Shown: positions 17,174-35,008 of the stretch, piece by piece
Numbering within the stretch: the first letter of the stretch is position 1
Layout: each line of letters begins with the position of its first letter
Source of the DNA: an uncultured Verrucomicrobiota bacterium
Lineage (GTDB): Bacteria; Verrucomicrobiota; Kiritimatiellia; RFP12; UBA1067
DNA length: 35,963 bases
Assembly (NCBI GenBank): GCA_946610035.1
Contig: CAMOCC010000023.1
Span: 1-35,963, forward strand
Direction of reading: 5' to 3'
The notes under the pieces: generated by a model
What the model saw: the letters and a program-made list of their open reading frames with translations, nothing else
Database searches by the model: none
Told to the model about the DNA's origin: nothing
Program-made: the position numbers and the translations under genes

Positions 17174-17193
17174 CATAGCCCGAAAGGACTATG
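17174..17193. promoter_or_regulatory. Palindromic operator-like site upstream of the GH43 gene
   Basis: CATAGCCCGAAAGGACTATG has 7 of 8 arm positions paired around a 4-base GAAA spacer. Its centre (17183.5) is 32.5 bp before the -10 at 17216. That is the same geometry as the TCACAC-type sites at 24027 and 32635, although the arm sequence differs. It is placed where an activator would contact polymerase. Confidence 0.5.
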
Positions 17194-17215: not shown

Positions 17216-17221
17216 TATAAT
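17216..17221 (+). promoter_or_regulatory. -10 element of the GH43 gene
   Basis: TATAAT at 17216-17221 is preceded by GAGG. No -35 matches at 16-19 bp. Initiation near 17228 would give a leader of about 118 bases before the GH43 start. That leader would begin exactly at an ATG opening a 9-codon frame (17228-17257, MGCFVQEQR). Confidence 0.65.
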
Positions 17222-17345
17222 GTGCGCATGGGATGTTTTGTCCAGGAGCAGCGTTGATGGCGGCGATTGGAGCCATCGGCCTGACGAACGGACTTCTGAT
17301 GAAAACGCGGACCCGAAGGGCGCGATCAAAGCGAAAGGGAAAGAA

Positions 17346-18902: not shown

Positions 18903-18918
18903 TCACTCATTTGGGTAA
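18903..18918. promoter_or_regulatory. TCACAC-type palindromic site upstream of GH95
   Basis: TCACTCATTTGGGTAA is an imperfect copy of the palindrome found at 24027 and 32635. It is likewise followed by TATC. Its centre (18910.5) lies 31.5 bp before the -10 at 18942. It is the weakest of the three copies. Confidence 0.55.
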
Positions 18919-18941
18919 TATCCTGTGGCGGTGCGATATGG

Positions 18942-18947
18942 TAGAAT
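18942..18947 (+). promoter_or_regulatory. Extended -10 element giving an apparently leaderless GH95 transcript
   Basis: TAGAAT (18942-18947) is preceded by TATGG. Only six bases separate it from the ATG at 18954, so transcription should start at or within a base or two of the start codon. There is no ribosome binding site between, which agrees with a leaderless mRNA. The rest of the spacer (18711-18902) shows only an AGAAGCTTCT palindrome and no gene. Confidence 0.6.
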
Positions 18948-18953
18948 GGTGGC

Positions 18954-21272
18954 ATGAAAACGACTGACCAGATTCGCATAATCGGCTCTGCCTTCCTAAC
19001 CGCCGTGCTGTCGCTTACCGCGTCCGCCGCGTATGAACTGAAATACGACTCCCCGGCAAGGATCTGGGAGGAGGCGCTGCCGCTCGGCGGCGGCTCTGTC
19101 GGCGCGATGGTCTGGGGCGGCGTCCAACACGAGACCGTCGACCTCAACGAGGACACCGTCTGGAGCGGCTCGCCCAACTCCAACGTCAACCCCGACTTCA
19201 AGGCTTGCCTCGACGAACTAAGGAAGGCAATCCTCGCCGGCGACTGGGAGAAGGCAAATCCCGGACGCATCCCCGGCGCGCGCAACCACGGTATGAACTA
19301 CCAGTTCCCCGGTTCGCTCAAGCTGGACTTCGATGGCGTCGGCGAAAAGATCGACGGCTATCAGCGCGAGCTTTCGCTTGACTCCGCGTGCGCGACCGTC
19401 TTGTTTGCCGCCGATGGAATACGCAATGAGAGAGTCGCCTTCACGCCGCTAGGAAAGGGAGGCTTAGTCTATTGCCTCGCCGCCAAGAAGGGCAAGAAGG
19501 GCGCCCTTGCGTTCCGCGCCTCGCTCAAGCGCGCGCACGACAATGCGACGGTTTCCGTCGAAGACGGAACTCTCGTCCTTCGCGGCGTGACGTCCGACAA
19601 GGACGGCGTCCCCGGGAAGGTGCGCTATACCGTCCTCGTCAAGGTCGCGGACTGCGACGGAAAGGTTGCCCCCGAAGGCGACGCCATTCGAGTCTCCGGC
19701 GCATCAAAGGCCACGGTCTATGTCGCGATAGGCACGAACTTCAAGAGATACGACGACATCTCCGGCGATGCGGACACCGTTGCGCGGAAGCGGCTCGCCG
19801 AACTGACGGCGGGGAACGCGAAATCGCTTTTCGCCGCGCACTGCAAGGCATACCGCGAGCAGGCGGACCGGTGTACGCTCGACCTAGGGACGGATAAGTT
19901 TCCGCAGAAGACGACGGACCGCCGCCTCGCTGATTTCGCGTCTTCGGACGATCCGTATTTCGCCGCGCTGTATTTCCGCTTCGGACGCTACCTGCTCATC
20001 TCCTGCTCGCAGCCAGGCACGCAGCCTGCGAACCTCCAGGGGCTGTGGAACAACAGCCTCACCCCGCCGTGGTGCTCGAAGTACACGGTGAACATCAACA
20101 CCGAGATGAACTACTGGCCGAGCGAGGTGACCAACCTCGGCGAGCTTTCCAATCCGCTCTTCAAGATGATCGGCGAGCTTTCCGTCACAGGCGCGAAGGC
20201 GGCGGAGGAGATGTATGGCGCGAAGGGCTGGGTGACGCACCACAACACGGACATCTGGCGCATTGCCGGACCCGTCGACACCTGGATAGCCTGCGGCTGG
20301 TGGCCCTCCGGCGGCGGATGGCTTTCGACTCACATCTGGGAACACTACCTGTACACGCGCGACAGGAAGTTCCTGGAGGAGAACTACGGAGTCCTCAAGG
20401 GCGCAGCGGAGTTCTTCGACACCTTCGCCGTGGTGAACCCGCAGACTGGACGCCTTGCGTTCATTCCGTCGAACTCCCCGGAGAACACGCCCTACCAGCG
20501 CCCGCACGGACTCGACCCGTCCTGCACGATGGACCACGCGATTGCGCGCGACGTGTGGAACGCCGTCATCGAGGCGGCGCGAATCCTCGGACGAGACGCC
20601 GACTACGCCGCACATCTTGCGGAGCGCGTGAAGATGCTCGAGCCGTACCATGTCGGCAACTGGGGTCAGCTTCAGGAGTGGGGCAAGGACGTTGACGTCC
20701 CATGGGATACTCATCGCCACGTCTCGCATCTCTACGGACTCTACCCCTCGGCGCAGATAACTCCCGAGACGCCGGAGCTCTTCAACGCCGCGCGCGTCTC
20801 GCTCGCGAAGCGCGGCGACGTCTCGACCGGATGGGCCATGGGCTGGCGAGTGTGCCTTTGGGCGCGCCTTCTCGACGGAGACCACGCGTTCAAGCTTATA
20901 CAGAACCAGCTATCGCCTCTCGGCAAGGTCGAGGGCGGCGGCGGAACATATCCCAACCTCTTCGACGCGCATCCCCCGTTCCAGATCGACGGCAACTTCG
21001 GCTGCACTGCCGGCATCGCCGAGATGCTGATGCAGAGCCACCGCGGTTTCGTCGAGCTCCTGCCTGCTTTGCCGTCCGCATGGCCCAACGGCTCTGTCAA
21101 GGGACTTCGCGCGCGCGGCGGATGGACGGTCGACTTCACGTGGAAGAATGGTGCGGTCACGGACTGCAGGGTCAAGGCTGGCGTCGGCGGAAAGCTGAAG
21201 ATAAAGATCAACGGCAAGATGTCCGAGTATAGCGTCAGGCCGGGTGCTACGGTCCGACCGAAGACCGAGTGA
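18954..21272 (+). CDS. Secreted GH95 alpha-L-fucosidase/alpha-L-galactosidase
   Basis: GH95 enzymes remove terminal alpha-1,2-L-fucose or alpha-L-galactose by inversion, for example from xyloglucan side chains or host glycans. The 772-residue protein has a signal peptide ending near ASAAYELKY. An N-terminal beta-sandwich follows (LPLGGGSVGAMVWGG, LNEDTVWSG), then the (alpha/alpha)6 catalytic barrel from about 320 to 700. The catalytic asparagines are Asn380 and Asn382 in NINTEMNYW. Asp679 in QIDGNFGCTAGIAEM is the conserved acidic residue near the end. HRHVSHLYGLYP is also typical. I could not place the catalytic Glu with certainty. Its promoter carries the shared palindrome at 18903. It converges on the response-regulator gene with a 33-base gap. 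Confidence 0.93.
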   Translation: MKTTDQIRIIGSAFLTAVLSLTASAAYELKYDSPARIWEEALPLGGGSVGAMVWGGVQHETVDLNEDTVWSGSPNSNVNPDFKACLDELRKAILAGDWEKANPGRIPGARNHGMNYQFPGSLKLDFDGVGEKIDGYQRELSLDSACATVLFAADGIRNERVAFTPLGKGGLVYCLAAKKGKKGALAFRASLKRAHDNATVSVEDGTLVLRGVTSDKDGVPGKVRYTVLVKVADCDGKVAPEGDAIRVSGASKATVYVAIGTNFKRYDDISGDADTVARKRLAELTAGNAKSLFAAHCKAYREQADRCTLDLGTDKFPQKTTDRRLADFASSDDPYFAALYFRFGRYLLISCSQPGTQPANLQGLWNNSLTPPWCSKYTVNINTEMNYWPSEVTNLGELSNPLFKMIGELSVTGAKAAEEMYGAKGWVTHHNTDIWRIAGPVDTWIACGWWPSGGGWLSTHIWEHYLYTRDRKFLEENYGVLKGAAEFFDTFAVVNPQTGRLAFIPSNSPENTPYQRPHGLDPSCTMDHAIARDVWNAVIEAARILGRDADYAAHLAERVKMLEPYHVGNWGQLQEWGKDVDVPWDTHRHVSHLYGLYPSAQITPETPELFNAARVSLAKRGDVSTGWAMGWRVCLWARLLDGDHAFKLIQNQLSPLGKVEGGGGTYPNLFDAHPPFQIDGNFGCTAGIAEMLMQSHRGFVELLPALPSAWPNGSVKGLRARGGWTVDFTWKNGAVTDCRVKAGVGGKLKIKINGKMSEYSVRPGATVRPKTE

Positions 21273-21305
21273 TCGGACTCTGATGCCGCACGGCGTGAAT
21301 GACCG

Positions 21306-21920
21306 TCAGCTTGAGGCCAGGCCGCGGCGGATCGCCTCCGCGACCGCCTCGGCGCGCGTTTCGACGTCCATCTTCGCGAAGACGTGCCGAAGGTGCGACT
21401 TGACGGTGTCCACGCTGATCTCGAGAACCGACGATATGTCCTTGTTGGTGAGTCCGCGCGCCATGAGGCGCAGGAGCTCCAGTTCGCGCGGCGTGAGGTC
21501 GGGGAGAGTCTTGCGCATTTCGTAGATTCTCCGCACCTGGTCCGTCATGTACGTCTCGCCTGCTGCAATCTTGTTGACGGCGTCGACAATGATTTCCGGA
21601 CGGTTGTCCTTCACTACATATCCGCGCGCGCCTGCCTCAAGCGAGCGGAAGATGTCCTCCTCCGCGTCTGAAGTTGAAAGCATCAGCACCTTGAGCTTCG
21701 GGAAAGCGGCGAGAATCTCGTCGAGCGCGGAGAGTCCGTCTCGCCCAGGCATCCTTATGTCCAGGAGGAGGATGTCGGGATTGTGCTCGCGCACGGCCTT
21801 CATGGCCTCGTCTCCATCCGCCGCCTCGGCTACTACTTCGATTTTCGGGTTGATCTTAAGGACGAACCTTAGCCCCATCCTCACGACCGCGTGGTCGTCT
21901 GCAATTACGAGTCTGATCAT
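21306..21920 (-). CDS. NarL/FixJ-family response regulator
   Basis: The 204-residue protein has a receiver domain (1-120) with the acidic pair Asp8/Asp9, phosphoacceptor Asp54 (LLLDIRMPG), a switch Ser/Thr at 82-83 and Lys104 (YVVKDN). A LuxR-type helix-turn-helix covers about 138-204 (LTPRELELLRLMARGLTNKDI, VSVDTVKSHLRHVF-like). It is probably an activator. Its ATG overlaps the stop of the histidine kinase, so the two are co-translated and presumably partners. The pair lies among hemicellulase genes whose promoters carry a shared palindrome, making it the local candidate to bind those sites. Confidence 0.93.
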   Translation of the reverse strand: MIRLVIADDHAVVRMGLRFVLKINPKIEVVAEAADGDEAMKAVREHNPDILLLDIRMPGRDGLSALDEILAAFPKLKVLMLSTSDAEEDIFRSLEAGARGYVVKDNRPEIIVDAVNKIAAGETYMTDQVRRIYEMRKTLPDLTPRELELLRLMARGLTNKDISSVLEISVDTVKSHLRHVFAKMDVETRAEAVAEAIRRGLASS

Positions 21921-23980
21921 GTCTTCACCTCGATTCTGAAAACGTTCCAGCGCTTGCGCGTTTCCCAGAATATCCGTACGCCCGCGCGCTTCGCTCGCTC
22001 TCGCATGCCAACGAGCCCGTAGTGGCCAGATTCCGGACCGGGTGCGGACGCCGCGTCGAACGGCTCGCCGTCGTTGAGGAGCCGGACGGTGAAGCCGCCG
22101 GGAACCGGATCAGCGACGAGGATGAAGTTTCTCGCGCCGCCGTGCTTTACGGCGTTCGTGTGCGCCTCCTCGACAAGATGCAGTATCGTTGTGAGGAGCT
22201 GCGCAGGAATGCGCTGCGGAATGCCGCGCAGCATGTTGCGCACCCTGAAGAGCCCATGGGCGGAAAGCCGTTTCGCGAACTCGGCGAAGACGGTCTTCGC
22301 ATCCTTGTCGAAATTGTCGTCCGACCGGAGGTTGAATATCGTCTCTCTTATCTCGGCTTTGGCGCGGTCGAGTATTTCGGCGGCGCTTTCGACGGCCTCA
22401 GACACGCATTGGGGTGTTTCCGGCGACAGGCGAAGCGAGGTGCGCATCAGCATCCGCGCAGCGGTGAGGTTCTGCTCGATGGAGTCGTGCAGGTCGCTTG
22501 CCATCCGCTTGCGTTCCGCCGCGACGGCCTCGAGCCTGCCTCTGCGCCTGTTGGAGACGACGAGACGGGCGACGACAATCGCGGCGAGCGCGAGGGCGGC
22601 GACGCTGAGGATTGTGAGGAGGTCGGAGAGGAGCGATTTCCTGCGCCTCGACAGCCATTCCGGATCGCTGACGAACGCGATGTCTTTCGGTCCGGATATG
22701 TCGAAGTGCACACCGCTGACCTCCGGCATGCGCGCGAGCGGGGTCGAATCCGCAAGGGATATCTCGGCCACGGCCGTTATGCTTGCGAGCGGCATCATCT
22801 CCTTTGCGTCGGCGAACGCGTCCGGAAGCTCTCCGTGCAGAAACGCGGTGCATGTCCTGTCGTCGTCCGAAAGCAGCAGGTCAAATCCTCCGCGCGCGGG
22901 CGTAGCGGAGATCACGCGCGCGATGAAGCGCACGCGGCACCAGCCGAAGTCCCTGAGCCCTCCGTCTACTCTTCCGACGGGCCACAGGCTGTAGTGGGCC
23001 ATCTTTACGTCGACTGGATCCGGGAGACGTTTCCTCCCGACTGTCCTGCATACGGCGCCGTGGAGTTCGCCGAAGCCGCCGATGGAAACCGGGAAGCCCG
23101 CGACTTCGACGGCATCCCCGACCTTCGCCTCGTGTTTTCCGCTGCACTCGACCTTAATTCCGCGCTGCTCGTCCTGCATGAAGAACACTTCGTCGGACGC
23201 GACGAACGTGACTGTTCCGCGAACCTTCTTGGCGTGTCCGTCGTACGGAGCAGGCGAGTACGAGAGGATTTCGGAAAGCTTCGTCTCGGGGATGTCGAAG
23301 AGCGACGAAGGGGCGTTCTTCGTGACCTTTATGTCGGAGGCGTCGCCTACCTCGAGCCTGACGCCGAGGAACTCCGCGCGGAGGTTGAAGAGGCTCATGG
23401 CGCATCCCGATATCTCAAGTTCGGCGTCGACCGCGTGCGTCCAGGGTTCGGGTTCGCCGGGGACGCGCGCGACAAAGCTTCCGTCCGAGGTGTTGAGAAG
23501 AAGCGCCGTGCCGGACTCCGTCTCTCCGGTTCTGTGTGGAGCTATTACGGATTTCACGAGCACGCCGCTGAGCGTCACGCGCGTGTTGTCCATAGCGCCC
23601 CATCCGAGGTCGGCCAGACGCACGCGCGGAGGAGGCGGCAGCGCTGTCTCGCCTATCTTGCGGATGACGTCGGCCTTGATTCCGGGGGCGAAGGAGAGGC
23701 AGGCTGTCCTGCCGCGGATCTCCACGACATCGCCTTGCTTCAACCTGTCTGAGCCTTCGAGGCGCGAACTTGTCAGCATCTGCGTCTCGCCGAGGAAGTA
23801 GACGCCGCGTCCGTTGGGGTTTTCCGGGTCTGCCGCGACGCCCGAATTGGTGCGCCATTCCGTGGCTACGGTGACGACGCCGGTCGCGACCACTTCGCGT
23901 CCGAACGCCGCCTCGTCGCGCGACATACGCGCGACGTCCGTAAGCGAGAGGGCCGCAATCAAAAGGGCGGTAGCATGCAT
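21917..23980 (-). CDS. Membrane sensor histidine kinase with exported OB-like domains
   Basis: The 687-residue protein starts with a short hydrophobic export signal (MHATALLIAALSL). A long exported region (about 20-450) follows. Its repeated pattern (GREVVATGVVT, NTRVTLSGVLVKS, GHAKKVRGTVTFV) suggests several OB-fold-like beta domains. A membrane helix lies at about 454-475. The HisKA_3 dimerisation domain has the phosphoacceptor His498 in DLHDSIEQNL. The ATPase domain shows the N-box Asn609 (EEAHTNAVKHGG) and a G-box near 652-658. It would phosphorylate the co-encoded NarL-type regulator. No ribosome binding site precedes the ATG; TGTAAT (23994-23989, minus strand) eight bases upstream might be a -10 of a near-leaderless transcript. 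Confidence 0.88.
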   Translation of the reverse strand: MHATALLIAALSLTDVARMSRDEAAFGREVVATGVVTVATEWRTNSGVAADPENPNGRGVYFLGETQMLTSSRLEGSDRLKQGDVVEIRGRTACLSFAPGIKADVIRKIGETALPPPPRVRLADLGWGAMDNTRVTLSGVLVKSVIAPHRTGETESGTALLLNTSDGSFVARVPGEPEPWTHAVDAELEISGCAMSLFNLRAEFLGVRLEVGDASDIKVTKNAPSSLFDIPETKLSEILSYSPAPYDGHAKKVRGTVTFVASDEVFFMQDEQRGIKVECSGKHEAKVGDAVEVAGFPVSIGGFGELHGAVCRTVGRKRLPDPVDVKMAHYSLWPVGRVDGGLRDFGWCRVRFIARVISATPARGGFDLLLSDDDRTCTAFLHGELPDAFADAKEMMPLASITAVAEISLADSTPLARMPEVSGVHFDISGPKDIAFVSDPEWLSRRRKSLLSDLLTILSVAALALAAIVVARLVVSNRRRGRLEAVAAERKRMASDLHDSIEQNLTAARMLMRTSLRLSPETPQCVSEAVESAAEILDRAKAEIRETIFNLRSDDNFDKDAKTVFAEFAKRLSAHGLFRVRNMLRGIPQRIPAQLLTTILHLVEEAHTNAVKHGGARNFILVADPVPGGFTVRLLNDGEPFDAASAPGPESGHYGLVGMRERAKRAGVRIFWETRKRWNVFRIEVKT

Positions 23981-24026
23981 GACACTAGATTACAATTTTC
24001 CGGAGCGGATGTCAACGGCGGAGATG

Positions 24027-24042
24027 TCACACCTTTGAGTGA
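24027..24042. promoter_or_regulatory. TCACAC-type palindromic site in the kinase/NPCBM-operon divergent spacer
   Basis: TCACACCTTTGAGTGA has five of six arm positions paired around a 4-base spacer and is followed by TATACC. Its centre (24034.5) lies 32.5 bp before the -10 at 24067. It is shared by the divergent histidine kinase gene, whose start is 47 bases to the left. Confidence 0.7.
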
Positions 24043-24066
24043 TATACCTTTCTCTGGGCAAAATGG

Positions 24067-24072
24067 TAGAAT
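24067..24072 (+). promoter_or_regulatory. Extended -10 element of the NPCBM-GH51-GH5/43 operon
   Basis: TAGAAT is preceded by AATGG (extended -10). No -35 fits, in keeping with an activator-dependent promoter. A GAAAGGA tract lies between it and ATG 24100. Confidence 0.65.
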
Positions 24073-24099
24073 AGCGCCGCAAACGAAAGGAACGCCACA

Positions 24100-27000
24100 A
24101 TGAAGAATGTGCTCATGTCGGTTACTCTCGCGTCCGCCGTCGCCCTGCTTTCGCAGTGCGCATCGGCGGAAGTCACCTATCATCTGGAGGATCTCGACCT
24201 TTCCACGATGACGAAAGGCAGCGACCAGGTGCGGAAGAACCAGTCGACGGGCGGCAATACGCTGACCATGAATGAGGTCCAGTATTCGACAGGCGTCGGC
24301 ACTCATGCGGAAAGCCACTACGTCATCTATCTCAACGGCAAAGGCGTAAGCTTCAGCGCAAAGGTCGGCATCGATGACGAGTCACTCGACGGCGAAGGCA
24401 GGAGCAGGTCGAACGGCGTCATATTTAGGGTTGTCAGCCTGGATGACGGAACAGACCTAGCCAACAGCGGGGTTGTCAACGCCGGAGAAGGCGCGAAGGA
24501 AATATCGGCTAGCCTCGAAGGTGTCGCCAAAATCGACCTTGTCGTTGACACGAACGGCGCCTCTGACTGGGATCACGCCGACTGGGTGGAGACAGAACTC
24601 GTGTGTTCGGAGGCGATATTCGCCGACGAGACAAGGCGTCTGTGGAATCCGACGGGGAGCGGGAAGTCCATTGCCGACGGAGCGGAATGGAACCCGACGT
24701 TTACAGGCGGCTATCCAACTCACTGCGACTTTCTCGCGATAAACAGCGAAACTGCGGCATCGCTTGGCGAAGGCGAATCCTTCTCGGCCAAAAAGCTCTT
24801 CGTCGGGTATGGCGTCACGCTGGATCAATCCGGCAATTTCCACCAGGATGCTGCAAGCGACCGCGGTGCGGTTTTCAACATGACAGGCGGAACGCTCGAT
24901 GTCATCGATGAACTGCGTATAGGTGCAGCATTTGCGGACAACAACAACTGCATTATGAATGTCACTGGTGGAAAGGTGACGGCGGGCAAGCTCATCATGG
25001 GCGATTGCGCGTCGAATGGCGGCAAGCACAACGGACTGACGATCGACGGAGCTGAGATGGAGTTGAATGTCGGCGAATCCTATATATCGCCGTACAGGGA
25101 AGGCAATTCGAAGATCGAAATCAAAAACGGCGGAAAACTCACGAGCAAATCCCGCTTCTATGTCGGCGAGCAGGGCTTCGGAACTTTGACAGTCGAAGGA
25201 ACAGACAGCTCGTTCATATCGTCCGGTAATCTCCATATCGCCCAGGAGTCCTCTGCCACGGGTGTTGTGCATGTCGTGTCCGGCACGCTTAAGGCAGGAA
25301 ATGACATCTACGTCGGCAACAAGGGATTCGGAACTTTGACCATCGACGGAGGAACTGTCTCCTGCACGTACTGGCTCGACTTCAACCGCGAGGAGGGCAG
25401 TTCTTCCGAGCATGGCGGCGTCGTTAACTTCAACGGAGGCGTGCTGAACGTCGGCAAAGTCCACAGCGCTAGAGGTCCGTCCATCTTCAACTGGAACGGA
25501 GGCACTTACAAACCCAACGGAAATTACAGCGACTGCTTTGAGGCTTCCGAAGGACTTACCGTGAACGTCCTCGCAGGTGGCGCGGTCCTTGACACCTCCA
25601 GTTGTTCAGAGAGCATAATCGCTCCGGCGCTTGCCGGCTCCGGCTTCCTCAAAAAGACCGGATCAGGAACAGGCGAACTGAGAGGTTCTGTCGATCTCAG
25701 GCGTGGATTCATCGTGGAAGAGGGGACGCTGAAGATAACTGGAACGATCGCCTCCACGGCCACGACTCCGCTGAAGGAGATATCCGTCGCGGACGGTGCG
25801 TCGCTCGACTTGAACGGACAGACGGTCCATGTCCTGGCATACAAGGTGGCTGGCGTCGAGCAGGAGACCGGCACATATTCCGAGCAGAACGGAACGATCA
25901 TCGTCATCGACGCAGACACGACTCCTGTTTCGGCGGTCTGGACGAACGGATCTGGTGATGGTGATGTCGCCAATGCCGCGAACTGGGAGGCGCGCAATAA
26001 GGACGGTGTTCTTCTTTACGATGTCCTGCCTACTGATTCCACGGTCGTGACAATACCATACGAAGGCAGGCTTGAGAAACTCGGCGAGTTCGATTCCGCA
26101 GAGACGATTCTCGCCGTCTCCGGCGCAGCGACGCTTGCCGGCTTCGCCGCGGCTCCTGTCATCGCGAAGTCCGCTGTCGGCTGGTACGACGCGTCGGACC
26201 GTGCGTCGCTGACGGTTGCGGATGACGGCACCGTGAACGGAATCAACAACAAGGGTTCCTCGAGCGTCGATCTCGACCTCGCTCTTGCAAAGCCCGACAA
26301 GGCGCGCCAGCCGTCGTACGATCCGGAGAAGTGGAGCCTGAACGGGCTGCCTGTCATTGCCTTCACGAACGCCTACGGTTTCGCATCGAAGGACGAGACG
26401 GGAATCGCGAGTTCCGCCGACAAGACGATTATGGTCGTCTCGCGCCATCAGTGCAACACGTTCCACAAATACGACAACAGCGGGGCGGAGACGGGCGAGT
26501 ATTATAACGAGATGATGCCGCTCGGAATCGAAAGCACAAGCACGAACGACGATGGGTTCCGCATAGAAGACTGCGACTGGGGATGGCGCCTGAGCTACTG
26601 GGACGAAGGGAACGAGAGCGATCGGTTCAGGGATCTCGCTCGAGGTTCTATAACCGGACGTGACGCATCCAACAACGAGCGCTGGCAGATGTGGGATATG
26701 GGCATTAAGGATATGACGGTGCTGGCGCACTGCTGGGATTCCGACACAGGCCATTTGGGAACGTCCGCGTCCGAGACGATTTCCGCTGCGGGCGAAAGGA
26801 CCGACAACAAGATATACCTCGGCTACAGAAAGCTCTACAGTGCCTCTTCGTCCGGATTCATCGCCGAAGCGTTTCTGTTCGACAAGGCTCTTGCGGAAGG
26901 CGAGCTTGCGGCAATGCGCGACTATCTGCAGCAGAAGTGGTTCTCGTCCGATTCAGTCTCCACGCTCCCTGAATCGCTGAGGCTTGAAAGCGGTGCGTCG

Positions 27001-27363
27001 CTCGATCTTAACGGAAGGCCGGTCGAGTTTGCGAAGGTGTATGGCGGCGGAACGCTGTCGAACGGCGCGGCGACAATTACGGACACCTTGGTCGTCACTG
27101 TCAACGACGACGGAACGATCGATCCGCTTGCTGTTGACGGCGCTCTTGTGATCGGCGAGAACGCGAAGCTTGTCGTGAAGAACGCGAGGAATCTGGTCGG
27201 GATGAACCCCGTCGTCGTGGCGAGCGCGACAGAGGGAATCACGGGCGCATTCGCATCGGCGGTGTCCGACCCGGAGGGGCTGCCCCTTCGGTCCGTAAAG
27301 TCCGCTGACGGCAAAAGCATAACAATCGCGCGGCGCGGCGGTCTGATGTTGATTTTCCAGTGA
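24100..27363 (+). CDS. Large secreted NPCBM / beta-helix / LamG-like surface protein
   Basis: The 1087-residue protein has a signal peptide (MKNVLMSVTLASAVALLSQCASA). An NPCBM domain (about 24-170) is recognisable by YHLEDLDLSTM, STGGNTLTMNEVQYSTGVGTHA and DWDHADWVETEL. A repetitive beta-helix region (about 190-600) resembles autotransporter-associated strand repeats: FNMTGGTLDV, MNVTGGKVTAGKL, FGTLTVEGTDS, FGTLTIDGGTV. From about 690 to 960 comes a LamG/concanavalin-like domain (VGWYDASDRASL ... AEAFLFDKALAEGELAAMRDYLQQKWF). A final beta region ends in GGLMLIFQ. There is no outer-membrane barrel. It probably binds polysaccharide at the cell surface or as a scaffold, and heads the operon with GH51 and GH5-GH43. 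It has no catalytic motif that I can see. Confidence 0.75.
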   Translation: MKNVLMSVTLASAVALLSQCASAEVTYHLEDLDLSTMTKGSDQVRKNQSTGGNTLTMNEVQYSTGVGTHAESHYVIYLNGKGVSFSAKVGIDDESLDGEGRSRSNGVIFRVVSLDDGTDLANSGVVNAGEGAKEISASLEGVAKIDLVVDTNGASDWDHADWVETELVCSEAIFADETRRLWNPTGSGKSIADGAEWNPTFTGGYPTHCDFLAINSETAASLGEGESFSAKKLFVGYGVTLDQSGNFHQDAASDRGAVFNMTGGTLDVIDELRIGAAFADNNNCIMNVTGGKVTAGKLIMGDCASNGGKHNGLTIDGAEMELNVGESYISPYREGNSKIEIKNGGKLTSKSRFYVGEQGFGTLTVEGTDSSFISSGNLHIAQESSATGVVHVVSGTLKAGNDIYVGNKGFGTLTIDGGTVSCTYWLDFNREEGSSSEHGGVVNFNGGVLNVGKVHSARGPSIFNWNGGTYKPNGNYSDCFEASEGLTVNVLAGGAVLDTSSCSESIIAPALAGSGFLKKTGSGTGELRGSVDLRRGFIVEEGTLKITGTIASTATTPLKEISVADGASLDLNGQTVHVLAYKVAGVEQETGTYSEQNGTIIVIDADTTPVSAVWTNGSGDGDVANAANWEARNKDGVLLYDVLPTDSTVVTIPYEGRLEKLGEFDSAETILAVSGAATLAGFAAAPVIAKSAVGWYDASDRASLTVADDGTVNGINNKGSSSVDLDLALAKPDKARQPSYDPEKWSLNGLPVIAFTNAYGFASKDETGIASSADKTIMVVSRHQCNTFHKYDNSGAETGEYYNEMMPLGIESTSTNDDGFRIEDCDWGWRLSYWDEGNESDRFRDLARGSITGRDASNNERWQMWDMGIKDMTVLAHCWDSDTGHLGTSASETISAAGERTDNKIYLGYRKLYSASSSGFIAEAFLFDKALAEGELAAMRDYLQQKWFSSDSVSTLPESLRLESGASLDLNGRPVEFAKVYGGGTLSNGAATITDTLVVTVNDDGTIDPLAVDGALVIGENAKLVVKNARNLVGMNPVVVASATEGITGAFASAVSDPEGLPLRSVKSADGKSITIARRGGLMLIFQ

Positions 27364-27385
27364 TGGATTACAAAACAGAAGTTAT

Positions 27386-29866
27386 ATGAAAACGACTTTG
27401 ACGGCATTGGCGGCGGCGGCAATCGCGGCCACGGCATTTGGAGGAGTACGGATCGCGGTCGATCCAGGCGCGAATGGACACGACGTTCCGAAGACGCTGT
27501 ACGGAATCTTCTTCGAGGACATCAACCATGCGGCGGACGGCGGGGTGTATCCAGAGCTGATCGAGAACCGCGGATTCGACTGGAAGACGAAGGATCTCGA
27601 GGGTTGGCAGACCGACTTCCGCGGAGACGCGATGGCACGCGTATCGCTTCAGGACGGACGCCCCGTGCATCCCGCGACGGCGCGCCACCTGCGCATCGAG
27701 TGCTTCGGCGCTGGCGATGGATGCGGCGTGAGGAACTTCGGCTACGGCGGCGTAAGCGTGGAGGCGGGGAAGAAGTACGACCTCACGTTCTATGCGCGCG
27801 GACTCGACGGCTACAGGGGCGGCTTGAGGTGCGTCCTCGAACGCGGCGGAAGCGTCCTCTGCGAGGCGAAGGTCGCCAATAGCGACATGAGCGTCGCGCC
27901 GGCAAACGAGTCCCTCGACTTCGAGCTTCCCGAGTGGAAGCGACATGCGTTTGTGTTCGAACCGCGCGAGACGGTCTCGGACGGCACCTTCTCGATTCTC
28001 CTCGATGCGCCCGGTGCGGTCGAGATCGAGCAGGTGTCGCTGTATCCGCAGGACACGTTCAACGGGAGGAAGAACGGACTTCGCAAAGACCTTGTGCAGT
28101 GGCTGAAGGACATGAAGCCTGGCGTCCTGCGATTCCCGGGCGGATGCATCGCCGAGGGCCACGACTTCCAGCACTGGTTCGACTGGAAGCGCACCGTCGG
28201 CGCGCTCGAGCGACGCGAGACGATCTGGAACACGTGGGGGTACTGGCAGTCGATGGGGCTCGGCTACTACGAGTACTTCTGCCTTGCCGAGGATATCGGC
28301 GCGGAGCCGCTCCCCATCTGCATCGCAGGCCTCACGTGCCAGTTCCGCGGGCCCAAGTTCGCACCGATGGAGTCGATGGAATACTTTGCGGACAACATCT
28401 GCGACCTCATCGACTTCGCGAACGCAGATCCCGAGACTAACGTCTGGGGGAAGCTCAGGGCCGACATGGGGCATCCGGCGCCGTTCAACCTCAAGTATGT
28501 CGGAATCGGAAACGAAAACTGGGACAAGGTGTTCCTCGACCGCTATCTCGCAGTCTCGGAAATCGTAAGGAAGCGCCATCCCGAAATTCGAATCGTCTCC
28601 TCCTCCGGCGCGCAGCCGGGCGGCAGGGAGTTCGAGCTCGCGTGGAGCACCCTCACGGACAGGACGGCCGATGTCATCGACGAGCATTACTACATCGAGC
28701 CGCACTGGATGATCGACACGGAGTCGCGCTACGACAAATACGCGCGCGCCGGGAAGCCGCATGTCTATGCCGGAGAATACGCGGCGCATGAGCCGGACCG
28801 TGCGAACAACCTGCATTCCGCTCTCTGCGAGGCCGTCGCGATGACGGGATTCGAGCGAAACTCGGACGTCGTCGAGATGACGAGCTACGCGCCGCTCTTC
28901 AACAAGGTGGGGTGGAACGGATGGAAGCCCGACCTGATCTGGTTCGACAACCTCAAGTCATTCGGAACTCCCAACTACTACGTGCAGAAGATGTTCTCCG
29001 CGAACCGTCCGACGAAGTACCGTCCGTCGGCGGCGGAAGGCGCTGAGAACTTTCCGAAGCCGAAGGGTGCCGTAGGCTTCAGCATGTGGACGAGCGTTGC
29101 CGAGTTCAAGGACATCAAGGTGACTGCTGCGGACGGAGGAACGCTCTTCAAAGGCTTCCCCGAGATTGAGAAGTGCCCGCGCGGACCCGGCGCGCGCTGG
29201 CGCATGGTCGACGGAGCGATGCGTCAGGAGAACGGCGAGGCGACCTGGGACAGCGAGATCACGTTCGGCGATTCTGGATGGCGCGACTACGACTTCACGT
29301 GCAGGGCGAGGAAGGTTTCCGGAAGAGAGGGGTTCACGCTGCGCTTCTGCGTCGAGACAAAACGCAGCCTTACCCTGAACATCGGCGGGTGGGGCAATAC
29401 GCGCACAGCTCTCCAGGGAGGAGGATACGAAATACCGGAATCGGCATCTTGTCCGTTCACTGTCGAGGAGGGGCGTTGGTACGACGTCGCGGTCTCGGTT
29501 CGCGGAGGAAAGGTGTCCGCGAAGATCGACGGCAAGGCACTGTGGGATGACGTCGAGGTCGCGAGCAAGCCGCTGAGGACGTTCTACCACGTCTGCGGAA
29601 TGGACGAGGCGACGAACGAATACATCGTCAAATGCGTCAACCTTGACGTGGATGGACGCCGCAGGGTTACCGTGGACTTTGGTGAAAGGCTTCCGTCCGG
29701 ATTGGTCAAGATCGAGTCTCTCTCCGGCGATCCGAAGGTCGTCAACGATCTCGGCAATCCGACGCGCTGTGCAACGAAACTTTCCACGATGTCGTTCGCC
29801 GGAGGAACGTCTTTCACCACCGAAGTCGAGCCGTTCTCCCTCACCGTGTTCAGGATCGGCAGGTAA
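27386..29866 (+). CDS. Secreted GH51 alpha-L-arabinofuranosidase
   Basis: GH51 retaining enzymes release alpha-L-arabinofuranose from arabinoxylan, arabinan or arabinosylated xyloglucan. The 826-residue protein has a short signal peptide (MKTTLTALAAAAIAATAFGG) and an N-terminal carbohydrate-binding beta-sandwich (about 70-220). The catalytic barrel holds acid/base Glu377 in YVGIGNENWDK and nucleophile Glu464 in VYAGEYAAHE, plus LRFPGGCIAEGHDF. Residues about 570-725 form an inserted LamG/DUF1080-like jelly roll (DIKVTAADGG ... GFTLRFCVETKRSL). The last part (to 826) completes the C-terminal beta-sandwich usual in the family. It lies 22 bases after the NPCBM protein with a weak ribosome binding site, so it is probably read from the 24067 promoter. 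Confidence 0.93.
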   Translation: MKTTLTALAAAAIAATAFGGVRIAVDPGANGHDVPKTLYGIFFEDINHAADGGVYPELIENRGFDWKTKDLEGWQTDFRGDAMARVSLQDGRPVHPATARHLRIECFGAGDGCGVRNFGYGGVSVEAGKKYDLTFYARGLDGYRGGLRCVLERGGSVLCEAKVANSDMSVAPANESLDFELPEWKRHAFVFEPRETVSDGTFSILLDAPGAVEIEQVSLYPQDTFNGRKNGLRKDLVQWLKDMKPGVLRFPGGCIAEGHDFQHWFDWKRTVGALERRETIWNTWGYWQSMGLGYYEYFCLAEDIGAEPLPICIAGLTCQFRGPKFAPMESMEYFADNICDLIDFANADPETNVWGKLRADMGHPAPFNLKYVGIGNENWDKVFLDRYLAVSEIVRKRHPEIRIVSSSGAQPGGREFELAWSTLTDRTADVIDEHYYIEPHWMIDTESRYDKYARAGKPHVYAGEYAAHEPDRANNLHSALCEAVAMTGFERNSDVVEMTSYAPLFNKVGWNGWKPDLIWFDNLKSFGTPNYYVQKMFSANRPTKYRPSAAEGAENFPKPKGAVGFSMWTSVAEFKDIKVTAADGGTLFKGFPEIEKCPRGPGARWRMVDGAMRQENGEATWDSEITFGDSGWRDYDFTCRARKVSGREGFTLRFCVETKRSLTLNIGGWGNTRTALQGGGYEIPESASCPFTVEEGRWYDVAVSVRGGKVSAKIDGKALWDDVEVASKPLRTFYHVCGMDEATNEYIVKCVNLDVDGRRRVTVDFGERLPSGLVKIESLSGDPKVVNDLGNPTRCATKLSTMSFAGGTSFTTEVEPFSLTVFRIGR

Positions 29867-29896
29867 TGCACATCATCAGGCAAGGGACCGCCGGAG

Positions 29897-32632
29897 ATGA
29901 AATCTAAGTCATGGTTCGTGATTGCAGCGACAATCGCCGCCGTGCAGTGCGTGCACTGCACGGCGCTTGCCGCACCGCTGCCGCCAATCCACGTGCAGGG
30001 GCGACATTTCGTCGACGACCGGGGGAACTGCGTGCGCATGGGCGGAGTGATGCAGTCCATCAACTCGTATTTCAACGACAACGAATGGGGATGGGGCAGT
30101 GGCGACCACCTCATTCCGCGCATGCTCGAGTACTACGACAAGACGACAAAGGCGCTGACGGACCGTTCGCAGGGGTGCTACGTAAACATGGTGCGGCTCA
30201 CGGACGACGGATGGTGGACGCAGGACGACAATCTCAAACCGTCGAAGGACGCGCCGCACTTTTACGCCTGCGACTGGTCGAAGTACGACCGCTATGTCGA
30301 GAAAGTGCTCGTCCCGGTCACGACGAACGCTGTTGCGCATGGGCTCTACGTGATCATCCGTCCGTCGTACAACACGCCTGGTGACACGAAGGTCGGAGAC
30401 GACTACCAGAAGCACCTGCTGAAGGAATGGGAGCATCTCGCTGCGAACAAGGTTCTGCAGAAGCTCGCCGGACGCGTCCTCTTCGAACTGGAGAACGAGC
30501 CGATAAAGATTGAGCCGCGCGAAGGGATGCCGCGCGAAAGTGCGCTTGCGGAATACATGCAGCCCATGATTGACGTTATTCGCGCGAAGGGCTTCAAGGG
30601 GCCGATCCTCGCGCCGGGCCTCTATTGGCAGTCAAACTTCGAGGACTACGCGAAGTATCCGCTGCGGGACGGCAATCTCGGCTATGCCGTGCATGCCTAT
30701 CCGGGATGGTACGATCAGAACGACGACAACGCCGATGTCGAGAAGTTCCTTGCGCGCTTCCGCCAGCTTGTGCCGGTTGCGGACTTTGCGCCGATTGTGG
30801 TTACCGAAGTGGACTGGAGCCCGATAAAGCCCGGCAAGGGCAAGAACAACGAGTTCGGGCAGTGGGTGCCGGAGAACTGGGGCACGTGGGGAACGGGGTC
30901 GTCGTCAAAATGGGGGCGCGCGTATATCGGCACGATTGAAAAGCTTGGCAACGTGTCCACGCTCGCAGGGGATGCGCGCGTTCTCTTCGAGGTCAAGAAG
31001 TACCTTGAGACGGGGAAGTTCGAGCTGCGATTCGGCGGAGAGAAGGAATGCTGCGGGGCGGCTTTCGCACAGCTGTTCAGGAAGTGGGCGAACGCCCCGA
31101 AGAGAAAGGCACCGAAAAGCGCGACGTTCCGCAACCCGGTCATCCTGGCGGACTGTCCCGATCCGAGCATGTGCCGCGCGGGAGACTACATCTACATGGT
31201 CTCGACGACGATGCATTTCATGCCTGGCGCGCCGGTGATGCGTTCTAAGGACATGGTGCACTGGGAGATCGTGTCCTATATCTTCGACGGAATCGATTCG
31301 CCGGAGTATTCGTTCGAGGCCGAGAACGGAAAGACGGGATACGGCGCCGGACAGTGGGCGACGTCGATCGTCCACCACAAGGGTAAGTTCTATGCATGGT
31401 TCATCGTCAACGACGTCGGCGGCTTCATGTATACCGCAGACAGACCCGAAGGTCCGTGGCGGCTTCTCAGCCGCGGTCCGTATCTGCACGACGGCTCGCT
31501 CGTGTTCGATGACGACGGAAGGGTGTACGTGTTCCATGGCTCCGGGCGTGTCACTGAGATGAAGGAAGACCTGACTGGCGCAAAACCCGGCGGACTTGAC
31601 CGGCAGCTCTTCGAGCGCGGGGAGGAGACGGCGCTGCTCGAGGGCTCTGCCGCTTTTAAGAAGGACGGATACTACTACCTGATGATGGTGTCCTGCTTTC
31701 TGCCGAACCATCCGAGGCGGGAGGTGTGCTATCGCTCGAAATCCCTTGATGGCGAATGGGAGAAGAAGGTCATACTCGAGACGGAGTTCGAGAACTGGGG
31801 TGGCGTGGGGCAGGGATGCGTCGTGGAGTGTCCGGACGGAAAATGGCGTGCGATGGTGTTCCAGGACCGCGGCGGCCTCGGGAGGATCCCGTGTCTGATG
31901 GGCGTGACGTGGAAGGACGGATGGCCGATTCTCGGCAACCGGGAGGGGAAGATTCCAAGCGATTTCACCAAGCCGTATCCGTCGCTTTCGGGCATTGTCG
32001 GATCAGACGGTTTCAAAAAGAAGACGCTTGATCTCAGGTGGCAGTGGAACCACAATCCGCTCGACGGCGCCTGGTCTCTCGTTGAGCGACCAGGCTGGAT
32101 GCGGCTCAAGGCGCAGAAGGTCGCGCCGAACATCTTCCTTGCGCGCAACACGCTGACGCAGCGCATGATAGGTCCGCAGTGCGAAGGTGAAATCAGAATG
32201 GACGTCTCGAGGATGAAGGACGGTGACCGCGCTGGACTTGCCGCGTTCCAGTCCGATAGCGCCGTGCTTGCCGTTGTCTGCGAAGACGGCAGGAAGCGGC
32301 TTGTCATGAGCGAGGAGAAAAGCGTGTTCGAGGAAGGACGCAGAAATCCGCGCGCCGAGGTTTCGGAAAAGGAGTCCGTGGCGCTTTCGTCCGACATTGT
32401 CTACTTGCGCATACGGACGGATTTCCGCCCTGGACAGGACTGGGCCGAGATGGACTGGAGCCCCGACCGAAAGACGTGGCGCCGAATCGGCACGCGCTTC
32501 CCGCTGCGCTTCGACTGGACGCGCATGTTCGTTGGCTCGCGCTTTGCGATATTCTGCTATCCGACGAAATCCCCCGGCGGATATGTAGACGTCGACTACT
32601 TCCGGTTCTCCTGCGAAGGACACGAGAGGTAG
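29897..32632 (+). CDS. Secreted bifunctional GH5-GH43 hemicellulase
   Basis: The 911-residue protein begins with a signal peptide ending near CTALAAP. A GH5-type (beta/alpha)8 domain (about 31-395) follows, with acid/base Glu201 in FELENEP and nucleophile Glu304 in VVTEVDWS. A short basic linker (KRKAPKSA) leads to a GH43 propeller (about 411-695) with base Asp422 (ADCPDPS), modulator Asp532 (LHDGSLVFDDDG) and acid Glu582 (LLEGSAAF). A C-terminal beta-sandwich (about 710-911) of the kind that completes the GH43 active site follows. It would combine backbone cleavage with xylose or arabinose release. The gene sits 30 bases after GH51 in the same operon. The GH5 subfamily, and so the backbone cut, is not determined. 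Confidence 0.88.
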   Translation: MKSKSWFVIAATIAAVQCVHCTALAAPLPPIHVQGRHFVDDRGNCVRMGGVMQSINSYFNDNEWGWGSGDHLIPRMLEYYDKTTKALTDRSQGCYVNMVRLTDDGWWTQDDNLKPSKDAPHFYACDWSKYDRYVEKVLVPVTTNAVAHGLYVIIRPSYNTPGDTKVGDDYQKHLLKEWEHLAANKVLQKLAGRVLFELENEPIKIEPREGMPRESALAEYMQPMIDVIRAKGFKGPILAPGLYWQSNFEDYAKYPLRDGNLGYAVHAYPGWYDQNDDNADVEKFLARFRQLVPVADFAPIVVTEVDWSPIKPGKGKNNEFGQWVPENWGTWGTGSSSKWGRAYIGTIEKLGNVSTLAGDARVLFEVKKYLETGKFELRFGGEKECCGAAFAQLFRKWANAPKRKAPKSATFRNPVILADCPDPSMCRAGDYIYMVSTTMHFMPGAPVMRSKDMVHWEIVSYIFDGIDSPEYSFEAENGKTGYGAGQWATSIVHHKGKFYAWFIVNDVGGFMYTADRPEGPWRLLSRGPYLHDGSLVFDDDGRVYVFHGSGRVTEMKEDLTGAKPGGLDRQLFERGEETALLEGSAAFKKDGYYYLMMVSCFLPNHPRREVCYRSKSLDGEWEKKVILETEFENWGGVGQGCVVECPDGKWRAMVFQDRGGLGRIPCLMGVTWKDGWPILGNREGKIPSDFTKPYPSLSGIVGSDGFKKKTLDLRWQWNHNPLDGAWSLVERPGWMRLKAQKVAPNIFLARNTLTQRMIGPQCEGEIRMDVSRMKDGDRAGLAAFQSDSAVLAVVCEDGRKRLVMSEEKSVFEEGRRNPRAEVSEKESVALSSDIVYLRIRTDFRPGQDWAEMDWSPDRKTWRRIGTRFPLRFDWTRMFVGSRFAIFCYPTKSPGGYVDVDYFRFSCEGHER

Positions 32633-32634
32633 TC

Positions 32635-32650
32635 TCACACCTTTGTGTGA
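32635..32650. promoter_or_regulatory. Perfect TCACAC/GTGTGA palindrome upstream of GH31
   Basis: TCACACCTTTGTGTGA is a perfect 6-bp inverted repeat around CTTT, starting two bases after the previous stop codon and followed by TATC. Its centre (32642.5) lies 32.5 bp before the -10 at 32675, the same as at 24027. It is the best copy of the shared motif. Confidence 0.75.
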
Positions 32651-32674
32651 TATCGCTTTGGCAAACGTCTTTGA

Positions 32675-32680
32675 TATACT
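32675..32680 (+). promoter_or_regulatory. Extended -10 element of the GH31 gene
   Basis: TATACT preceded by TTTGA (extended -10). A TTGGCA at 32658-32663 is too close (11 bp) to act as -35. The leader to ATG 32750 is about 63 bases. Confidence 0.55.
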
Positions 32681-32749: not shown

Positions 32750-35008
32750 ATGAAGACACTAATGTTGGCCGTTGTAACCGCGGCAGTCGTCTCGGCAGGC
32801 GCCGCGACGGACGTGAAGGTCGAATTCTGGCGCGATGACGTCGTCAGGATTCTCAAGATACCAGGTGGCGGCAAGGCGCCGGAGAAGAGCTATGTCGTCA
32901 CCGCGAAGCCTGAGAAGGTGGCCGTTGCGAAGTCCGAAAAGGACGGCGCGGCGACGTACTCCTCGGCGAAGCTCCGCGTCACGGTCGATGCAGAAGGGCG
33001 CGTCGCATTTGCCGCGGCGGACGGCACTCCGCTTCTCGCAGAGGAGGGCACGACCTTCACGCCGCGGGCGAAGGGCGATCCGGACGAGAACAGCTTCTCG
33101 GTGCGCCAGGCGTGGCTTCTGGACGGCGACGAGCCAGTGTACGGACTCGGCATCGTGCAGGAGGATTCCATCTCACGCCGCGGCATCACGAAGAAGGTGC
33201 TGCAGGACAACATCGAGGACTATTCGCCAGTTCTCCAGTCCATCAAGGGATGGGGTGTTTTCATCGACAGCTCGTCCATCGCAGAATACAAGGAGCTGAA
33301 CGGAGTCATGTCCTACACGAGCGAGGTAGGCGACGCGAGCGACTACTACTTCATGTACGGAGGCACTTCGGACGGCGTGGTGCGTCAGATACGCTGGCTC
33401 TCCGGCGAGGTGCCGATGCTGCCGAAGTGGTCGCTCGGCTACTATGTGAGCCGCGAGCGCTACACAAGCTGGTCGCAGCTCGCGGAGATTGTCGATGAGC
33501 ACAGGAAGCGCGGCATCCCGATGGACTGCATCGTGCAGGACTGGCAGTACTGGGGCGGAAACGAGAACTGGAATGCGCTTGATTTCATCGCCGACGGATT
33601 CAAGGACACTCCCGAGGCGGGCGTGAAGGCCGTCCACGACCGCAATGCGAAGCTCATGATCTCGTTCTGGCCTGACTTCGGTCCGAACGCGAAGCCCAAC
33701 AAGGACTTCAGGGACCGCGGCTGGTACTTCAAGGACTTCGTGACATGGCCGCGCGACGAGGGCGTGATTGTCTACGACGCGTTCAACCCCGCCGCACGCG
33801 ACCTCTACTGGAAGTACGTGCGCCGTCTCGTTGACTGCGGAATCGACGCGTGGTGGATGGACTCCACCGAGCCGGACCACTGGCCGCACACGAAGGAGAG
33901 CTTCGACGCGCCAACTTTCCTCGGCAGCTACCGCCGTGTGTGCAACCTCTTCCCGCTCTTGACCGTCGGCGGAATCTACGACCACCAGCGCGCGGACGAG
34001 CCGGACGGACGCCGCCGCGTGTCAATCATGACGCGTAGCTGCTTCACAGGGCTCCAGCGCACCGGCGCGAACACATGGTCGGGTGACGTCGATTCGAAGT
34101 GGGAGGTATTGCGCAGGCAGATCCCCGCCGGACTCGGCTTCGGCCTCACGGGCAATCCGAATTTCAACACCGACATCGGCGGATTCCATCCGTGGCACTT
34201 CAGCGGATATCCGGGCGGCATACTCAAGTGCCCCGAGTTCATCGAGCTGAACGTCCGCTGGATGCAGTACGCGCTCTTCAATCCGATCTTTCGTAGCCAC
34301 GGCACGGGCGCGCCGCGCGAGATATGGCAGTTCGGCGAGAAGGGGACGCCGGCGTACGACGCGATGGTAGAGGCGGTTAAGCTCCGCTACCGCTTCATGC
34401 CGTATCTCTACTCCACGGCGCGCTGGGTGTCGAAGGACAGCGGCACGATGATGCGTCCGCTCTTCGCAGAGTACCGCGCAGATCCCGGGACGTGGGAGGT
34501 TTCGGACCAGTTCCTCTTCGGAACCGAGCTGATGGCCGCGCCTGTCGTGCGCTACCGCGCTGGCCAGAGGCGCGTGTATCTTCCGGCAGGGACGAAATGG
34601 ACGTCGTTCTTCGACGGACGCGTCTTCGAGGGCGGAAGGTGGATTGCCGAGGACGTCTCGCTTGGCACGATTCCGCTCTACGCGAAGGCGGGCGCGATCG
34701 TCCCGATGGGTCCTGTCATGCAGTATGTCGACGAGGTGAAGAATCCAGTTGTCGAGATCAGGGTGTTCCCCGGCGTGGACGGCGCGTTCACGCTGTACGA
34801 CGATGCAGGCGACGGCTATCAATACGAGAAGGGCGAGTTCAGCGAGATTCCGCTCAAGTGGGACGACGCGAAGCAGGCGCTGACGATCGGCGCGCGCCGA
34901 GGTTCCTATCCCGGCATGGCGAAGACGCGCGAGTTCCGTGTCATCTGCGGCGCATGCTCGAAGACGGTCCGCTACGACGGCAGCCCAGTCGCTGTTGCGG
35001 TGCAGTAG
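32750..35008 (+). CDS. Secreted GH31 alpha-xylosidase/alpha-glucosidase
   Basis: GH31 retaining enzymes cleave alpha-xylosyl or alpha-glucosyl ends; the context favours alpha-xylosidase acting on xyloglucan oligosaccharides. The 752-residue protein has a signal peptide (MKTLMLAVVTAAVVSAGAA). An N-terminal beta-sandwich runs to about 220. The barrel has nucleophile Asp371 in WWMDSTEPD and acid/base Asp446 in WSGDVDS. RSHGTGAPREIWQFG is also typical. Two C-terminal beta domains follow (VYLPAGTKWTSFF, IPLYAKAGAIVPMGP). AAGGAG (32738-32743) is 6 bases before the ATG. It is transcribed from its own palindrome-bearing promoter. Its C-terminal 150 residues are closely related to the relic at 16530-17116. 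Confidence 0.93.
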   Translation: MKTLMLAVVTAAVVSAGAATDVKVEFWRDDVVRILKIPGGGKAPEKSYVVTAKPEKVAVAKSEKDGAATYSSAKLRVTVDAEGRVAFAAADGTPLLAEEGTTFTPRAKGDPDENSFSVRQAWLLDGDEPVYGLGIVQEDSISRRGITKKVLQDNIEDYSPVLQSIKGWGVFIDSSSIAEYKELNGVMSYTSEVGDASDYYFMYGGTSDGVVRQIRWLSGEVPMLPKWSLGYYVSRERYTSWSQLAEIVDEHRKRGIPMDCIVQDWQYWGGNENWNALDFIADGFKDTPEAGVKAVHDRNAKLMISFWPDFGPNAKPNKDFRDRGWYFKDFVTWPRDEGVIVYDAFNPAARDLYWKYVRRLVDCGIDAWWMDSTEPDHWPHTKESFDAPTFLGSYRRVCNLFPLLTVGGIYDHQRADEPDGRRRVSIMTRSCFTGLQRTGANTWSGDVDSKWEVLRRQIPAGLGFGLTGNPNFNTDIGGFHPWHFSGYPGGILKCPEFIELNVRWMQYALFNPIFRSHGTGAPREIWQFGEKGTPAYDAMVEAVKLRYRFMPYLYSTARWVSKDSGTMMRPLFAEYRADPGTWEVSDQFLFGTELMAAPVVRYRAGQRRVYLPAGTKWTSFFDGRVFEGGRWIAEDVSLGTIPLYAKAGAIVPMGPVMQYVDEVKNPVVEIRVFPGVDGAFTLYDDAGDGYQYEKGEFSEIPLKWDDAKQALTIGARRGSYPGMAKTREFRVICGACSKTVRYDGSPVAVAVQ

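Follow-up and report, generated by a model that had tools for sequence, protein, structure and literature searches.

In a stretch of 35,963 nucleotides from an uncultured bacterium of the phylum Verrucomicrobiota (contig CAMOCC010000023.1 of assembly GCA_946610035.1, positions 1 to 35,963; 'the window' below), three copies of a shared palindrome stand at almost the same distance before the promoters of genes for carbohydrate-active proteins. The question raised by this locus is which protein reads the palindromes, and how far its control extends. A first-pass annotation of the window had proposed an activator-type site at about -44 before genes for secreted glycosidases or a polysaccharide-binding protein, and from it an undescribed hemicellulose regulon. 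The shared site stands up well, and it is kept in both of the genomes that hold an orthologous regulator. A wide regulon does not: in this draft genome, exact copies of the site occur in this gene cluster only, which itself encodes a sensor kinase and a NarL-type regulator. The palindromes are best read as a real, locally confined operator set, and as one example of a scheme in the genus in which placement is fixed and sequence is specific to the locus.

All three sites lie on the forward strand and consist of two 6-bp arms flanking 4 bp. Site 1 (TCACTCATTTGGGTAA, 18903-18918), upstream of a gene for a glycoside hydrolase (GH) of family GH95, is the weakest, with four of six inner arm pairs. 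Site 2 (TCACACCTTTGAGTGA, 24027-24042) has five and lies between the divergent genes for the kinase and an NPCBM-domain protein, and site 3 (TCACACCTTTGTGTGA, 32635-32650), only two bases past the preceding stop codon, has all six. Each is directly followed by TAT, and direct reading confirms the sequences and coordinates given in the first-pass annotation. Downstream come extended -10 boxes in which TGn precedes the hexamer, again on the forward strand: TGGTAGAAT at 18939-18947 for site 1 (hexamer TAGAAT, 18942-18947), TGGTAGAAT again at 24064-24072 for site 2 (TAGAAT at 24067) and TGATATACT at 32672-32680 for site 3 (TATACT at 32675). The distances from palindrome centre to -10 hexamer, 31.5, 32.5 and 32.5 bp for sites 1, 2 and 3, were likewise given correctly. 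With the hexamer assumed to occupy -12 to -7, the centres fall at about -43.5 or -44.5, a position that fits an activator overlapping the -35 region. A role as transcription terminator or attenuator is ruled out by location, because the palindromes precede the -10 of the gene that they serve.

The chance expectation of such sites in the window is near nil. Palindromes with at least five of six arm pairs placed 31.5 or 32.5 bp before an extended -10 number two, against a mean of 0.04 and a maximum of 1 in 200 first-order resamplings of the window, site 1 being too imperfect to be counted at this threshold. A search of the window with TCACACCTTTGTGTGATAT and up to three mismatches returns sites 2 and 3, where shuffles predict none. 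Across the draft genome, which spans 3.03 Mb and is 88% complete, the degenerate consensus TCACNCNTTTGNGTRATAT has exact matches at sites 1-3 only, and the regulon would therefore be a local one. Allowing two mismatches gives five places, and none for a reversed-pattern control; both additional places need the two mismatches, and the one on contig C12 is part of that locus's own palindromic word.

Between the target genes, on the reverse strand, lies a two-component pair whose genes overlap by 4 bp. The response regulator (21306-21920) is of the NarL/FixJ type, with a receiver domain (PF00072, E = 4.9e-27) and a C-terminal GerE helix-turn-helix (HTH) domain (PF00196, E = 1.3e-17), and has near full-length matches to VraR, NarL and DevR. 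It falls under the NCBIfam equivalog cut-offs for MctR (160 bits against 300), NarL (155 against 250) and MadR (154 against 300). The gene upstream of it encodes a sensor histidine kinase (21917-23980) with the HisKA_3 domain (PF07730), found in all 20 members of the kinase alignment, the window kinase included. Its long N-terminal region, of about 430 amino acids, matches no Pfam family and seems by eye to contain OB-fold-like repeats. Over most of its length this region has relatives in Kiritimatiellae, Verrucomicrobium, Chthoniobacter and Akkermansia-type genomes; the solved structural relatives of the kinase span the kinase core only. Besides kinase families, three families were matched among the 20 aligned kinases, by one member each and with E values of 0.0035-0.0087. 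No second regulator was found beside the targets among the Pfam-scanned open reading frames (ORFs), several of which match no family at all.

The palindrome is thus very probably the operator of the adjacent response regulator, which would activate from about -44. In the mechanism proposed, a polysaccharide-derived or envelope signal would be perceived by the N-terminal region of the kinase, and the kinase would then phosphorylate the regulator. The regulator would bind the palindrome as a dimer, in a position that overlaps the -35 region, and would bring RNA polymerase to three transcription units, each with an extended -10 promoter. The ligand and the substrate are predictions from sequence, and so are phosphorylation, binding and an activating rather than a repressing effect.

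Fixed placement and local words across the genus

The genus offers many comparable loci, with up to some 20 kinases per genome. Seventy-nine two-component loci around kinase-regulator genes were compared, the window included and L080 and L081 left out; 64 of them passed a test for kinase plus regulator and 76 held a regulator. Promoters were defined as TGNTANNAT or TGNTANACT lying 12-199 bp ahead of the ATG of an ORF of 200 codons or more. Any promoter with no more than 12 mismatches in 51 bp to one retained earlier was removed as near-identical, which left 207. Palindromes with at least five of six arm pairs were counted at every distance from the -10 and free of any motif. They occur at 30.5, 31.5 and 32.5 bp in 10, 12 and 9 of the 207 promoters, where the other 37 offsets have a mean of 1.5 and never more than 4 (Poisson p for the peak about 2e-16). 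A fixed operator-to-(-10) distance of this kind is expected of an activator-dependent promoter. As controls, loci of the same genus that lack a regulator were used (39 of 40, the remaining one having held a regulator; 556 kb, 103 promoters); these give 2 of 103 at 30.5-32.5 bp, compared with 31 of 207 (Fisher p=1.6e-4). In held-out loci, 7 of 55 promoters again carry a palindrome at this place (p=0.0014 by Poisson; p=0.009 in comparison with these controls). Enrichment is weaker in promoters lacking TGn, with 1, 5 and 5 of 219 at 30.5, 31.5 and 32.5 bp and 4 and 5 at 26.5 and 27.5 bp, and kinase loci of Verrucomicrobiia and Planctomycetes (27 loci) yield 1 of 15 promoters.

When a matrix is derived from the 31 sites, 29% of the 207 promoters, which include the training set, score at least 5 at this place, as do 12.7% of the 55; at other places the figure is 0-3.6% across the sets. 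The absence of a -35 element, which the first-pass annotation had singled out, does not set these promoters apart: the match to TTGACA averages 3.0 of 6 in the palindromic promoters, 2.8 in the other promoters of the same loci and 3.0 in the controls, so that the -35 is no weaker than elsewhere in these loci.

The palindromes share their place and differ in sequence from locus to locus. The word is TCGCYC...GGGYGA at L083, L093 and L094, TACACTTTCGTGTA or close to it at L098 and L116, TATAC...GTATA at L131 and TCATYC...GGGTGATG on contig C70. Operators from one locus have a similarity of 0.72 (10 pairs), those from different loci one of 0.45 (455 pairs; p=2e-4 by permutation). Over 22 loci, operator similarity also correlates with similarity of the recognition helix (Mantel r=0.29, p=0.005). 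The C12 word, TCACTCTTTCGTGTARG, is found with up to two mismatches at two places in the genome, both on C12, a kinase-bearing contig. The C20 word has one place genome-wide with up to three mismatches and its reversed control three, so that this word says nothing about locality. Four of five related loci in other genomes (L086-L089, L085 being the exception) retain another word, GGYCCGAATGGRCTATA, at an unchanged distance; in these copies the spacer varies, and the DNA upstream of the word is conserved as well. At L121 (12286), L135 (537) and L145 (6280), palindromes at the same spacing precede histidine kinase genes, which suggests that these kinase-regulator pairs are autoregulated.

At L082 (9640-9770, on C70), a single palindrome lies 31.5 bp before the -10 of a GH43 promoter and 32.5 bp before a TATAAT on the other strand, facing a divergent gene. 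It is a possible two-way operator.

The genes behind the palindromic promoters tend to look secreted. By a simple hydrophobicity rule for a signal-peptide-like N-terminus, 25 of the 31 downstream genes qualify, compared with 72 of 176 where a promoter of these loci has no palindrome and 28 of 103 behind control promoters. A Pfam scan covered 26 of the 31 first genes and placed 13 in catalytic carbohydrate-active families: GH31, GH97 (three, one with a GH29-type fucosidase), GH43 (two), GH10/GH43, GH28, GH88/GH28, arabinofuranosidase, GH115, GH127 and one carbohydrate esterase. Four more have a passenger-type repeat match, three of these under the Pfam cut-off, and the others comprise one NPCBM protein, one kinase and seven other or unassigned proteins. 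At L108 and L113, which were outside the scan, the N-termini lack a signal peptide by eye, and the palindromes there may have arisen by chance.

The balance of this evidence leans towards a modular promoter code, in which paralogous kinase-regulator pairs would each use a palindrome of their own, placed at about -42.5 to -44.5 before neighbouring genes for secreted glycan-degrading and surface proteins. If true, the rule of fixed distance and local word would make regulons readable from draft genomes of uncultured fibre degraders and would link regulators to their targets, and it would supply many paralogous regulator/operator pairs for the study of how specificity evolves in NarL-type proteins. 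No operator for this group was found in the open-licence literature searched, subscription papers lying outside that scope.

Conservation in related genomes

Near relatives are metagenome-assembled genomes of Kiritimatiellae, Verrucomicrobia and Lentisphaerae, several of them from ruminant gut. Among 61 genomes of the genus, including the present one (G000), orthologues of the regulator at 95% identity exist only in G062 and G032, the next best match being at 52%; the kinase orthologues are 97% and 92% identical, respectively. Sites 2 and 3 are retained in both genomes and site 1 in G062. The word TCACACCTTTGWGTGATAT with no or one mismatch is confined to these 3 of the 61 genomes, and conservation of the exact word throughout the genus is thereby rejected. 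G079 has a single match with two mismatches and, by eye, no box at the right distance within 120 bp. As the loci of G000, G062 and G032 are about 90-98% identical in DNA across most of the aligned length, retention of the sites is weak evidence when taken alone.

Two observations at the GH95 promoter count for more than these near-identical copies. When G062 (C111, 17346) is aligned with the window (18901), the DNA upstream of the GH95 gene is unrelated until the palindrome and conserved from the palindrome onward. The GH95 orthologue of G032, whose protein is 79% identical, is located behind the GH31 gene, and its promoter does not align with that of the window. This promoter has the right half-site GTGTGA, then 21 nt and TGGTACAAT, the same distance as at sites 2 and 3 when counted by eye; its left half-site is imperfect and shifted by one base. 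Either the GH95 gene has moved within the cluster or the assemblies differ.

Two further matches, at G004:C22 4411 and G032:C89 6411 (one mismatch to a looser pattern), were set aside as not orthologous. In both, the palindrome directly abuts a TATAAT-like box, a different geometry that perhaps belongs to another class of regulator. Two outcomes that would speak against a shared site, hits spread randomly with respect to promoters and copies lost at orthologous promoters, were looked for in part, and neither was found, the conservation among G000, G062 and G032 being partly weak.

Other explanations and known systems

Several points weigh against the palindromes being operators of the neighbouring regulators. 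Binding and expression at the palindromes are read from sequence, site 1 is a weak palindrome with four of six pairs, and the conservation in G062 and G032 is mostly a matter of shared near-identical DNA. A promoter with at least five of six pairs is present at just 22 of the 79 two-component loci, and the 31 palindromic promoters are not fully independent, since they include orthologues (L098/L116 and L135/L145). An earlier held-out set gave 2 of 43 promoters, which is not significant (p=0.58). The two held-out sets overlap, sharing several contigs and one counted palindrome, the 55-promoter set having been de-duplicated against the 207 and not against the 43. A regulator was assigned to each locus as the nearest one, that is, by proximity. 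The correlations of operator with regulator similarity over the 22 loci (Mantel r=0.24-0.29, p=0.005-0.008) use this assignment, and some of the 22 loci are orthologous to each other. The receiver domain gives r=0.25 and the HTH domain r=0.24; with the two correlating about equally, the link to the operator follows the ancestry of the regulators and is not specific to the helix. The C70 word has three exact places, two on C70 and one on C154, and five more with one mismatch on C8, C69 and C119, and is therefore not strictly local. Lastly, 5.8% of the 103 control promoters reach a matrix score of at least 5 at the diagnostic place, against 0-1.9% at other places in the controls, so that some sites may belong to unlinked regulators.

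These last two points are also what would be expected if the palindrome were bound by a protein encoded elsewhere, of the LacI, GntR or CRP type for example, with the local two-component system acting at other targets. Binding by the local regulator is itself predicted, and the palindrome at 17174 shows that not every word at a promoter of the window belongs to the local set. A global regulator would, however, give one word at many loci, and exact copies of the three sites occur in this cluster alone. Operators are moreover more alike within loci than between them, and palindromes at this offset are enriched beside kinase-regulator genes relative to the control loci. An unlinked regulator is accordingly an improbable reader of the three sites.

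Repression by the bound protein, with induction releasing it, is a further alternative that concerns the direction of control, which is likewise predicted from position. A site overlapping the -35 region could well exclude RNA polymerase. Repressor sites are usually less constrained in position than activator sites, however, and placement at 30.5-32.5 bp before an extended -10 is what an activator contacting the polymerase requires, which makes repressor operators unlikely here. Chance resemblance combined with shared ancestry of promoter copies, without regulatory meaning, can draw on the near-identical DNA of G062 and G032, the imperfect site 1 and the non-significant held-out set, and is nevertheless highly implausible given a shuffle expectation near 0, a motif-free positional peak with control loci, its replication in 7 of 55 held-out promoters and the removal of near-identical promoters ahead of counting.

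Known systems offer parallels to the proposed activation by the adjacent NarL-type regulator. ComA of Bacillus subtilis, a member of the NarL family, binds an inverted repeat of TTGCGG with a 4-nt spacer (PMC4797271). The likeness lies in the receiver plus GerE-type HTH domain and in a pair of 6-bp elements, 4 bp apart, upstream of where the polymerase sits. The arm sequence differs, and here each genome has many paralogous pairs, whose own operators stand close to genes for secreted glycan-degrading proteins.

Hybrid two-component systems (HTCS) are expanded in paralogues and encoded within their locus, with kinase and regulator fused in one protein. Those of the Bacteroides polysaccharide utilization loci (PULs) have an AraC/XylS-type HTH domain, according to a review of hemicellulase regulation (PMC10766802). 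They resemble the window system in that a sensor-regulator controls polysaccharide-degrading genes, control here being predicted. A text search of the review's main text returned none of NarL, LuxR, Verrucomicrobi- or palindrom-. In the window, kinase and regulator are separate genes, the regulator is NarL-type and no AraC-type domain appears among the Pfam matches. The window system is predicted to work like a PUL-type local two-component regulator. It is not an HTCS, its proteins being separate and its regulator of the NarL rather than the AraC type. The modular code favoured above would be a counterpart to the Bacteroides arrangement built from different parts, including a sensor region without a Pfam family.

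XydS/XydR of Clostridium cellulolyticum, from a different phylum, is described as a two-component system tied to a straw-induced hemicellulase cluster (PMC3572039), and this tie is the point of resemblance. Closer to home, the text on the marine Kiritimatiellota member Pontiella agarivorans (PMC10880615) reports a PF07730 kinase and a PF00072 regulator adjoining GH and sulfatase genes and suggests substrate sensing. The neighbourhood of kinase, regulator and GH genes is the same, and that text mentions no operator.

Genes in and around the cluster

The three sites probably serve three transcription units, all on the forward strand and assigned by Pfam. Site 1 precedes the gene for a probably secreted GH95-family glycosidase (18954-21272). 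Site 2 precedes a probable operon headed by the gene for the NPCBM-domain protein (24100-27363), which is also probably secreted and has in addition a T5SS/PEP-CTERM repeat match. This is followed after 22 bp by an alpha-L-arabinofuranosidase gene (ASD1/Alpha-L-AF_C, 27386-29866) and, 30 bp further on, by a gene for a GH5-like plus GH43 enzyme (29897-32632). Site 3 precedes a GH31 glycosidase gene (32750-35008), with which a Melibiase-family gene extending nearly to the contig end (35099-35938) may be cotranscribed. The N-termini of the GH95, NPCBM-domain and GH31 proteins look signal-peptide-like by eye. From the enzyme families alone, whose substrate assignments are established family knowledge, the substrate may reasonably be guessed to be fucosylated xyloglucan or some other substituted hemicellulose.

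A fourth palindrome, of different sequence (CATAGCCCGAAAGGACTATG, 17174-17193, forward strand), has its centre 32.5 bp before a TATAAT at 17216 that lacks TGn, and is followed by a gene for a GH43 plus CBM6 protein (17220-18710, forward strand). Because its sequence is unlike sites 1-3, it is probably the operator of another regulator. The GH43 gene is preceded by ORFs at 16067-17116, the second of which (16454-17116) matches only C-terminal GH31 domains (GH31_3rd, DUF5110) and seems to be a piece of a GH31 gene. At position 4812, the window also has a sigma-54 gene.

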